A stretch of DNA of 64,000 bases, taken from positions 97,483,743-97,547,742 of the forward strand of contig NC_134839.1 of the NCBI RefSeq assembly GCF_965363235.1, written 5' to 3'. A program made the translations under genes and the position numbers. The notes beneath the pieces are model-generated. The model searched no databases and had not been told where the DNA came from. It saw only the letters and a program-made list of their open reading frames with translations. Below, piece by piece: positions 15,001 through 21,000 of the stretch. How positions within the stretch are numbered: the first letter of the stretch is position 1; each line of letters begins with the position of its first letter. This stretch comes from Mytilus galloprovincialis. Its lineage: Eukaryota > Mollusca > Bivalvia > Mytilida > Mytilidae.

Positions 15001-18000
15001 GTAAATGTACAAGACATAATTGAGTATATACAGAGTTGGTATGTTCTGCATACTGCACAGTTTATACCTTTTGCCACTGAATTCAATGTCTGTAAATCTA
15101 CTTCTGTCACTTCCAAATGCCATTGACTGATCCTGTCAAATCATAGTTTACAGTAAGATTAACTCATGTTCATGATAGTACTTTTTATCAATATAACTTT
15201 TTCCACAATTCCTTAATCTATCATATAAAGTTTTGTTTGTCAATTTCCTTTAAACAGTTTTCTAAGTAGGCTTGTGAGTCTGGTCTCTCAGATATATATG
15301 ATTTTATCTCTTCATACTTAATAAAATTTTATAAGAAGCAAACTTCTAAACAAAATATATAATTTACTAATAAGAAAATATAATCATTACTTTGTAACAA
15401 AGTAGCTAACAGGACCATACACCACTGTGCTTTCAGCAATGGTGACATTTTTGCCTTTTCAAAAAAAAACTTTGAAACTTTTCATCATAATTTGTAATTA
15501 AACTTAAAACTAATAATATAAAGTCATATCAATTCTCCTCTTGTCTCTATGTCTTTTCATGATCTACATTACTTACTGTAACTTTGAAATGAAAATCATC
15601 AATAAAAGCACTGTTCTTTTTCATTTTGTTTTAAGTTGTTAAATTGTTTTATTAAGTGCATGTAGAAATTTTGTGCCATGAACTTATACACCATTGCCTT
15701 TCTTTCCTATTAATGATAGGAAATAAAAAATATTTTTATCTCCAAGATAACTCTTTTTAAGTCTAAATGCACCGACAATATTGTCATAAGTTACCTGTAG
15801 ATCACATTCTCCACCCTGATCACAGATGGGACAATCCAGTGGATGATTCATTAGTAAAAACTCCATAACACCTTCCCTGGAAAATAAAAAAAATATATAA
15901 CTATAGTGTGAATTATAATTAAGAACAATCTTACTATTAAATGTGCTACTACACAACATAATGTATTCTCATACATTAAAACCTGACTATTTTTAGCATA
16001 AGCTTCTGATATTTTGTTTTTTGAGAGGGGATGCATTAAAAAAAGAAGTTTCATAAACAAAGAAACAAAAAATATGTTGTTTTCAAAGGCAGTTTGAATA
16101 AAAAATCTGACTTGTCAAAAAGATAAAGTAAAATTATATGTTCTTTAATCTTTTCTTTTGTTATTTGAGGGAGTAAATGCACTCTCAGCAAACCCTTAAT
16201 TAGCATCCCGAAGAAATTTATTTAAACTCAGCTTTTACACAAGCATTTTGTAGCAATCTGCGATCAATTTATATATATTTTTTCTTGAATAAAACCACTT
16301 TCAATCATATCTTACTTATTTAAAGTACAAAATGTAATATTTAAAATGAAACTAGCAATTTACAAGAAATATAAATTCACCTGGCCTTTCTTGTAGCAGG
16401 AGAATCTGTTTTGACTCTCATTCCTTTCATCACAGGCATAGCACATGAGGCAACAGGCTGTGGAATGAAAAATATATGTGTATACTATTACCATAGGAAA
16501 GACCTTATCAATTACAGACCATATTTCCTGCATTCAAAATCTCAGGACATGGTGATATGCAAATATTTAATATTCATTTCTGAAGTTGTACAATATGATG
16601 CATTTCTTAAAATTTGAAACCAATGTCATATCAAATACAGCAAATTCAGAAATTATTGTGAGTATTTAGTAATGCGAATAATTTGATACCTCTATACAAA
16701 ATCAATATTTTCTTTGCTGTCAGTTTCATTTATTAAATAAATAAAAGTGGGGAGTGGTGATTCATTGGACAATTTTATGACATACCAGTAAATCAGTTGC
16801 ACCTAGACATTCTCCTCAAGGTCTTGGGCGGTTAAAAAACAGTTTTTGTAAAGGTGTTTTGCTATCATCTTGAAAACTACCATAACTCTGACACAACTAG
16901 GAAATCAGTGAAAGAAATAGCATTACAGATTCTTGATCGCACAGTTTATATATTAAAGTTAAACTATCACATTTTTTTGGTTTGAATTTCTTTGCTTTTA
17001 AATAAATAGGCTCAGGTTCATGTTCCACAAATCGTTAAGTAACAATAAGATCAGACACTCAGCACCAGGTTCATATTGGTGTTGACCACATACAAATGAC
17101 ATAACTCTAAAAAGATAAAACCAATAAAACAAAATATACAGAAAGTTCTTACCTTAGCCGACTTTTCTACTTCAACCAGACACATTCTACAGTTACCAGC
17201 TATTGACAATCTGTTATGATAGAGAGTTCTTACCTTAGCCGACTTTTCTACTTCAACCAGACACATTCTACAGTTACCAGCTATTGACAATCTGTTATGA
17301 TAGAGAGTTCTTACCTTAGCCGACTTTTCTACTTCAACCAGACACATTCTACAGTTACCAGCTATTGACAATCTATCATGATAGAGAGTTCTTACCTTAG
17401 CCGACTTTTCTACTTCAACCAGACACATTCTACAGTTACCAGCTATTGACAATCTGTCATGATAGAGAGTTCTTACCTTAGCCGACTTTTCCAATTCAAC
17501 CATACACATTCTACAGTTACTAGCTATTGACAATTTGTTATGATAGAGAGTTCTTACCTTAGCCGACTTTTCTACTTCAACCAGACACATTCTACAGTTA
17601 CCAGCTATTGACAATCTGTCATGATAGAGAGTTCTTACCTTAGCCGACTTTTCTACTTCAACCAGACACATTCTACAGTTACCAGCTATTGACAATCTGT
17701 CATGATAGAGAGTTCTTACCTTAGCCGACTTTTCTACTTCAACCAGACACATTCTACAGTTACCAGCTATTGACAATCTGTTATGATAGAGAGTTCTTAC
17801 CTTAGCCGACTTTTCTACTTCGACCAGACACATTCTACAGTTACCAGCTATTGACAATCTGTCATGATAGAGAGTTCTTACCTTAGCCGACTTTTCTACT
17901 TCAACCAGACACATTCTACAGTTACCAGCTATTGACAATCTGTCATGATAGAGAGTTCTTACCTTAGCCGACTTTTCTACTTCGACCAGACACAGTCTAC

Positions 18001-21000
18001 AGTTACCAGCTATTGACAATCTGTTATGATAGAGAGTTCTTACCTTAGCCGACTTTTCTACTTCAACCAGACACATTCTACAGTTACCAGCTATTGACAA
18101 TCTGTTATGATAGAGAGTTCTTACCTTAGCCGACTTTTCTACTTCGACCAGACACATTCTACAGTTACCAGCTATTGACAATCTGTTATGATAGAGAGTT
18201 CTTACCTTAGCCGACTTTTCTACTTCAACCAGACACATTCTACAGTTACCAGCTATTGACAATCTGTTATGATAGAGAGTTCTTACCTTAGCCGACTTTT
18301 CTACTTCAACCAGACACATTCTACAGTTACCAGCTATTGACAATCTGTCATGATAGAGAGTTCTTACCTTAGCCGACTTTTCTACTTCGACCAGACACAT
18401 TCGACAGTTACCAGCTATTGACAATCTGTCATGATAGAGAGTTCTTACCTTAGCCGACTTTTCTACTTCAACCAGACACATTCTACAGTTACCAGCTATT
18501 GACAATCTTTCATGATAGAGAGTTCTTACCTTAGCCGACTTTTCTACTTCAACCAGACACATTCTACAGTTACCAGCTATTGACAATCTGTTATGATAGA
18601 GAGTTCTTACCTTAGCCGACTTTTCTACTTCCACCAGACACATTCTACAGTTACCAGCTATTGACAATCTGTCACGATAGAGAGTTCTTACCTTAGCCGA
18701 CTTTTCTACTTCAACCAGACACATTCTACAGTTACCAGCTATTGACAATTTGTCATGATAGAGAGTTCTTACCTTAACCGACTTTTCTACTTCAACCAGA
18801 CACATTCTACAGTTACCAGCTATTGACAATCTGTCATGATAGAGAGTTCATACCTTAGCCGACTTTTCTACTTCAACCAGACACATTCTACAGTTACCAG
18901 CTATTGACAATCTGTCATGATAGCAAAATCTAGGAATCTCTACTCCTGCTTCTGCACAAGCCTGTATTACAAAAGTTCAGAGAATTCATGAGGAAATAAA
19001 TCTGTATCAACTATACATACAGATATTTTCAAAAGCCAGAATTCAAAGTTAAAATATTTTCAACTATGTAGAAAGTCAGTTTAGAAGAAGATGACATCAA
19101 ATCAGATGTTATTTTAAATACCAACTTAGTTGTAAATATTTTGGAGAAATGCCAATTCATTAATTTTGTACAACAAAAAAACCTCAAACATTTGAGTGAT
19201 AGTTAGATAGATACATAATGCAATTATATATTGAAAACTCATTATAATCACCACTATCCAACCTTTTTGTACACATCAAAAGGGAATCAAATTTAATAAA
19301 AAGAATATTTTTATGTAAAATATATGAGTCATTTGTATACTATTGAAGATAACACAAATTATGGGAAAAGTTGTCCTTTGCGATCTTCGAAAGTCATCAT
19401 TGACCTAACTAATGGTCAATTGAAATATAACTATTCCTTAACATATTGCAAAATCAATTTAATTCAGCACATTTTTCACATAGATTGCCTATTCATATCA
19501 CACGCCATTCAGTGTGACACTAAAAAAACATCTTCATGTGAGAAACAAATAACAGGCCACAATTATAAGAGAATACAACTTCCTACAAGCAATTGCAATC
19601 AACGTTAACCATGTTAAATATTGTATTTGAATACACAAAAAAAATCAAAATTAGAAATATACATAAATGTTACCATTAAAACGTTTAATCCCGCTGCAAA
19701 TGTTTGCACCTGTCCTAAGTCAGGAATCTGATGTACAGTAGTTGTCGTTTGTTTATGTAATTTATACGTGTTTCTCGTTTTTTATATAGATTAGACCGTT
19801 GGTTTTCCCGTTTGAATGGTTTTACACTAGTAATTTTGGGGCCCTTTATAGCTTGTTGTTCGGTGTGAGCCAAGGCTCCGTGTTGAAGGCCGTACATTGA
19901 CCTATAATGGTTTACTTTTATAAATTGTTATTTGGATGGAGAGTTGTCTCATTGGCACTTACACCACATCTTCCTATATCTATAAATGGTAATATTATAA
20001 CAATACACAAACCTGCAATACTGTAGTTCCTGGAGCCACGAATACTTGTTTATCATCAACAAACACTTCTACTTTATCTTGAGCTGTTGTGTTAGTACGT
20101 GCTGAAATGAAAAGTAATTAACATGAATAATGTGTCCTAAAAAAAAATAACAATAAAAGAAAAATATTGAAAAGTAAAATCACAAAAATACTGAACTCAG
20201 AGGAAAATCAATTCGGAAAGTCCATAATCACATGGCAAAATCAAATAACAAAACGCATCAAAAACGAATGGACAAGAACTGTCATATTCCTGACTTGGTA
20301 CAGGCATTTTCAAATGTAGAAAATGGTGGATTGAACCTGGTTTTATAGCTAGCTAAACCTCTCACTTATATGACAGTCGCATCAAATTCCATTATATAGT
20401 CACCGATGCGTGAACAAAACAAACAGACATAATAGGTAAAAATGTCAAAAATAGGGGTACAGCAGTCAACATTGTGTTATCATCCTAATCACTATAAAAA
20501 CAACAAATGTAACGAAGAAGCACAAAAAGGCATACATCAAATGAACATCCTCATTTTGATTATATTATACGATTATATTTGTCTATGTAAAATGCACCCA
20601 TCAAGGAAGGAGGGTATGGGTACTGGTGTAAAATTGCGCGTTTGAAATTCGCACAGGTAGACATGAAATAATTTGAACATTTTGTGTTTTTTTTTTAGAT
20701 TTTGGTTGCTTTCACCTTGATGTATACCCATAAAATGAAAAAAGCTTTAAGGCTCATATTCTTTAATACAGAAGTTTTTTAATCACTCTTTCTTCTTGCC
20801 TATTCTCTTTTTGGGATATATAAGACAAATAGTTTTTTCTGAGAATGGTATACACATTTAACTTTTTTAAACAAGACATGCATACACAGTATGCAATTGA
20901 TAATAGTCCTAACTACATGTATAGTCAAATGTTAATAAAAAATTGTGCACCAGGCTTACACATGAATATGATATCAAGCCTATTTCTTCTTATTCTTTCA

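Follow-up and report, generated by a model that had tools for sequence, protein, structure and literature searches.

In a 64,000-nucleotide stretch of DNA from the bivalve Mytilus galloprovincialis (NCBI RefSeq assembly GCF_965363235.1, contig NC_134839.1, positions 97,483,743 to 97,547,742 of the forward strand; hereafter, the window, with positions counted from its first letter), an 81-bp tandem array of 22 copies (17142..18923, minus strand) runs over the end of exon 3 of the respiratory gene NDUFS1 and over the splice donor that follows it. The reading favoured here, from the genomic sequence of one haplotype and with a probability of roughly 0.77, is that a minisatellite has swallowed the splice donor and would be removed as intron, only donor 1 being productive, though the 21 decoy donors score stronger. 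An 81-bp segment made up of the final 69 bp of exon 3 and the initial 12 bp of intron 3 would have undergone tandem duplication, and further amplification would have brought it to 22 copies. The productive mRNA would join donor 1 (between 18854 and 18853) to the acceptor at 16457, with copies 2-22 leaving as intron, and use of donors 2-22 would end translation at a TGA at codon 88, upstream of 16 exon junctions, and hence lead to degradation or a short useless peptide. As any use of donors 2-22 would leave the TGA in the mRNA, the array is probably tolerated rather than functional. The array, the intact gene, the stop and its effect on the frame can be read directly from the sequence; we infer that the cell uses donor 1, that it seldom splices from the later donors or degrades what they yield, and that copy number varies.

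Structure of the repeat array

Tandem Repeats Finder (TRF) places the array at 17140-18923, with a period of 81, 22.0 copies, 97% matches, 0% indels and a score of 3372, and 22 ungapped units can be cut downward from 18923. Each unit consists of the 69-bp coding end of exon 3 and the 12-bp start of intron 3 on the minus strand, and an AAG/GT donor (the slash marks the splice site) is present in 22/22 units at an exact spacing of 81 bp. The extended motif AAGGTA[AT]GA occurs 22 times on the minus strand between 17000 and 19000, always 81 apart, and outside the array it has a single occurrence in the window, on the plus strand at 52191. With head-to-tail units in many copies (81 bp x 22), the array has the make-up of a minisatellite, which an excerpt of PMC3618361 defines by head-to-tail units of 15-100 bp. 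Chance is no serious alternative as the source of the array. A blastn search with two of the units gave no match outside the array within the window at E<=1, and a 21-mer across the unit junction had 0 matches in viral_contigs and genome_contigs, which are viral and prokaryote collections and hence little informative.

The exon part of the unit matches the N-terminal part of NDUFS1 inside the Fer2_4 domain (Pfam 2Fe-2S, residues 29-105). It encodes Y64-K86, including C74 and C77, and C63 lies just upstream; C63, C74, C77 and C91 are presumably the ligands of the N1b 2Fe-2S cluster. Copies 2-22 (17142..18842, minus strand), each carrying AAG/GTAAGA, are open in frame at 27 codons per unit behind a stop in copy 1, and an open reading frame of 598 aa (17051-18847) spans them. 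A sequence-only reading of this stretch had proposed that the end of a coding exon and its donor were amplified into a minisatellite, with 22 copies of exactly 81 bp and no indels. It had further described the unit as 69 bp of exon and 12 bp of intron with AAG/GT in each copy, the lower 21 copies as open, and the repeated segment as the [2Fe-2S] cysteine region of NDUFS1. The TRF result and the ungapped units, the 22 donors in 81-bp steps, the 598-aa frame with the TGA of donor 1 lying ahead of it, and the NDUFS1 match within Fer2_4 bear out these points, and the anatomy fits such an amplification.

The units are not uniform. Fourteen of the 22 are distinct, nine carry a private base absent from every other copy, and the 28 differing cells across all units come down to 16 distinct changes from the consensus. 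This variation bears on the possibility that the copy number was inflated or collapsed during assembly and that the true allele has fewer copies, more copies or only one. Repeats that are 97% identical over 1.78 kb are a difficult target for assembly, but had a single unit been multiplied by artefact, so many distinct units and private bases would not have resulted. An assembly error in the copy number is therefore quite unlikely, 22 being the count in the assembled sequence. No clear period of a higher-order repeat emerged among the units, the mean differences being 1.88-2.36 at lags 1-10.

NDUFS1 as the host gene

The NDUFS1 gene (6036..21078, minus strand) was modelled with 19 exons and a 725-aa product; segments were placed along the minus strand by a tblastn probe, and the GT-AG exon edges were picked by hand. 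Eighteen exons are supported by homology and make up 704 codons, and all 19 give 725 codons plus the terminal stop. Exon 1 (21078-21018) is predicted only, as the sole candidate when 20102-33000 was scanned with filters. The 704 aa encoded by the other exons find 25 distinct PDB sequences at E<=1e-200, the best at 1180 bits. The 725-aa product matches seven Pfam families, including Fer2_4, NADH-G_4Fe-4S_3, Fer4_Nqo3, Fer4_NDSU1, Molybdopterin and NADH_dhqG_C. Full-length similarity and the domain set (2Fe-2S, 4Fe-4S, molybdopterin-like and C-terminal) identify the product as NDUFS1, the 75-kDa subunit of complex I, and the gene is intact. If NDUFS1 were a decaying pseudogene, the array would be harmless for that reason, and nothing beyond the array itself points in this direction. 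The full-length open protein and the GT-AG borders of the 18 modelled introns speak against decay, although, with the exon edges hand-picked for GT-AG, the independent evidence of the two is the open full-length match. Pseudogene status was rejected on the full-length open frame and is regarded as highly improbable.

Exon 3 (18854..18961) is 108 bp long and ends after codon 86 with ...EKSAK in phase 0, its last 69 bp being the exon part of copy 1. Intron 3 (16458..18853) measures 2396 bp, of which the array takes up 1712 bp, and is the longest of the 18 introns. Exon 4 (16381..16457) begins at the acceptor ccacag/CCTGTT and carries C91, a further cysteine of the 2Fe-2S domain. A second minisatellite (10871-11512), with a unit of ~45 bp in 14.7 copies and additional periods of 84 and 129 bp, lies wholly in intron 11 of NDUFS1, 78 bp from exon 11. 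Array growth is therefore not unusual in this stretch.

Donor choice and the stop codon in copy 1

Copy 1 equals the consensus except at one base, reading GTATGA at its donor where the other 21 copies read GTAAGA. Donor 1 (AAG/GTATGA, 18848..18853, minus strand) alone has T at +4. The resulting in-frame GTA TGA contains a stop at 18850-18848 that separates the real exon 3 from the open copies 2-22. Among the transcripts modelled with donors 1, 2, 3 and 22, the first yielded full-length NDUFS1 and the other three stopped at codon 88. Splicing from any of donors 2-22 is predicted to retain the copy 1 stop, which for the donors outside the modelled set follows from their sequence. With this in-frame TGA in the allele, the 21 open copies cannot become part of the protein through donor choice alone. 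The earlier suggestion of a tolerated intronic repeat spliced from 18854 agrees with these modelled outcomes.

Within the 12 intronic bases of the unit, 36 single changes are possible, and an in-frame stop arises from only one of them, the change present in copy 1. This count, made post hoc, suggests that the boundary was sealed by selection or that a stop already present in the ancestor rendered the first duplication harmless. At 18850 either A or T could be ancestral, each reading requiring one change.

Several observations weigh against the proposal that donor 1 alone is productive. Donor 1 is weaker than the other 21 donors by a metazoan matrix (7.16 vs 10.18 bits) and in its pairing with the 5′ end of U1 (-5.7 vs -9.5 kcal/mol). 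With a matrix built from the 17 other donors of the same gene, it reaches 8.85 against 10.05, a smaller gap. Its preference is thus unexplained by strength, and position or exon size would have to supply it; donor 1 may profit from being transcribed first or from giving the shortest exon. Equally early in-frame stops also follow the donor in 4/17 other introns (4, 7, 8 and 11), and a prompt stop is therefore unremarkable in itself. The score of donor 1 falls inside the span of the other NDUFS1 donors (2.41 to 10.7 bits, each left out), and donor 1 must win often enough for NDUFS1 to be made.

The strength of the decoys invites a reading in which the later donors are often used and the resulting premature-stop transcripts are cleared by nonsense-mediated decay (NMD), the array lowering NDUFS1 output, possibly by copy number, as a poison-exon-like load or control. 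That all 21 decoys outscore donor 1 by the three measures is in its favour, as are the codon 88 stop in the transcripts modelled with donors 2, 3 and 22 and the presence of the same stop in the others. Nevertheless, the later donors would stretch exon 3 from 108 bp to 189-1809 bp, and exon definition disfavours such lengthened exons; frequent use of the later donors is accordingly considered unlikely. Still more doubtful is an elaboration in which the array would act as a length-tunable brake. The 21 stronger decoys would divert a share of the transcripts to the copy 1 stop and NMD, and the stop would have been kept by selection, making the in-frame 2Fe-2S repeat harmless and degradable. If so, NDUFS1 output would vary with repeat number between individuals.

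Splice acceptors were also scored. The part of intron 3 taken up by the array contains 164 AGs, of which the best reaches 1.69 bits, compared with 10.04 bits for the real acceptor at 16457 by a matrix including it (5.23 when left out), and pseudo-exons or splicing within the array were rejected on this basis. As sequence scores, the same values would argue against the gain of a new intron flanked by duplicated splice signals. Two real NDUFS1 acceptors score only -0.73 and -0.49 bits when left out, so that low-scoring sites may still be used. At 17106 stands a strong acceptor-like AG (8.88 bits by the own-gene matrix); joined to donor 22, it would give an intron of 46 bases.

Coding potential and substitutions among copies

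A further possibility is that the copies are coding and lengthen the protein by as many as 567 amino acids, in which the CRMC motif recurs. The in-frame openness of copies 2-22 is compatible with this, and both cysteine codons are preserved in 22/22 copies. On paper, the stop could even be passed by through 43 of the 164 array AGs, which lie in phase with a frame that stays open as far as donor 22. As acceptors these 43 have scores of -5.96 to -11.79 bits, below the real acceptor by either of its values and below the lowest real acceptor at -0.73 bits. With the TGA in frame ahead of copies 2-22 and the in-array detour confined to paper, the repeats are not in the frame of the mature mRNA, as those of a coding tandem repeat would be. 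Barring a sequence error or a polymorphism at the T of 18850, coding expansion is disfavoured for this allele by the copy 1 TGA, and the substitutions described next reveal no coding constraint; we regard it as having very little chance of being correct.

The 16 distinct changes comprise 10 nonsynonymous changes, 5 synonymous changes and 1 stop. Random placement of 16 changes gives on average 4.05 synonymous changes and 0.70 stops, with P(>=5 synonymous)=0.38 and P(no stop)=0.46. The observed number of synonymous changes is thus close to that of random placement, no coding constraint is visible, and the changes among the copies look neutral. The open frame of copies 2-22 needs no special explanation, because it was inherited from a coding exon in a unit whose length is divisible by three, and 46% of the random trials were free of stops. 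Similarly, since there are few changes overall, the retained cysteine codons say little. The most diverged unit is copy 18 (17466..17546, minus strand), with six changes, five of them nonsynonymous when taken singly and two of them sharing one codon; other units carry 0-3 changes.

Comparison with described arrays

As a tandem array within an intron, presumably variable, the NDUFS1 array resembles intronic minisatellites and variable number tandem repeats (VNTRs) in general. Ordinary intronic VNTRs are not known to contain the end of the host exon and its donor. In the human 6-16/IFI6 gene, an array is reported to overlap an exon end, with a 12-bp unit and with alternative donors leading to viable isoforms. 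Compared with IFI6, the mussel array has a much longer unit (81 bp, 69 bp of it conserved coding sequence) and a copy 1 stop that is predicted to render the extra donors non-productive; the anatomy is otherwise alike. The use of more than one donor defines the IFI6 case, and here the frame analysis predicts that the later donors are non-productive. According to PMC4526556, two downstream repeat units of the 6-16/IFI6 minisatellite are used as splice donors and three mRNA species are formed, and this minisatellite, a provider of multiple splice donors (Turri, Cuin & Porter 1995, NAR 23:1854), is cited elsewhere for interference with splicing. The two systems share minisatellite units that carry splice donors. 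The IFI6-type anatomy of an array over an exon end with a donor consensus in its units is found here in all 22 AAG/GT sites and in copy 1 as the real exon end.

Two other systems allow further comparison. In a potato gene, an intron was gained by tandem duplication across an intron-exon boundary. In both cases, a boundary-crossing duplication carries splice signals along with it, and sequence that was once exon is turned into intron. The potato event concerned an acceptor boundary and a new intron was detected, whereas the donor was copied to 22 here and an existing intron was enlarged. Earthworm metallothionein genes have exon duplications that are absent from transcripts, as well as intronic minisatellites (PMC12783039). 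The location of a minisatellite in an intron is shared with NDUFS1; unlike in the NDUFS1 array, the earthworm repeat in the first intron is reported as a feature apart from the duplication of the fourth exon, and the two come from different clones.

Among the titles listed by a narrow literature search that covered few subscription journals, none describes such an array in NDUFS1 or in a mussel. The claim of the sequence-only reading that no case of this kind is known in NDUFS1 is uncontradicted to that extent, but the kind itself is already known from IFI6. The array shows that a minisatellite can engulf a splice junction without destroying the gene. It also constitutes a natural experiment in donor choice, in which 22 equally spaced donors stand in near-identical contexts, the presumed productive one being the weakest by score and the rest carrying the mark of a premature stop. 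In a core respiratory gene, it would thereby be possible to measure how position affects the choice of splice site and how large the NMD load is.

Other repeats in the window

Further repeats lie outside NDUFS1. The tracts at 2582-3086 and 32743-33789, downstream and upstream of the gene, belong to one repeat family with units of ~151 and ~161 bp, respectively, which are ~80-86% alike between the two sites. A 2.2-kb direct duplication (52698-54904 and 56593-58800) is 98.2% identical, and each copy has a similar open stretch of 235-236 aa. The copy at 56593-58800, the only one scanned, gave a match to the reverse transcriptase family RVT_1 below the curated cut-off. A retroelement with reverse transcriptase (RVT_1, E 5e-22) occupies 35863-40698; the frame after RVT_1 resembles what we take to be a tyrosine recombinase, suggesting a DIRS-like element.
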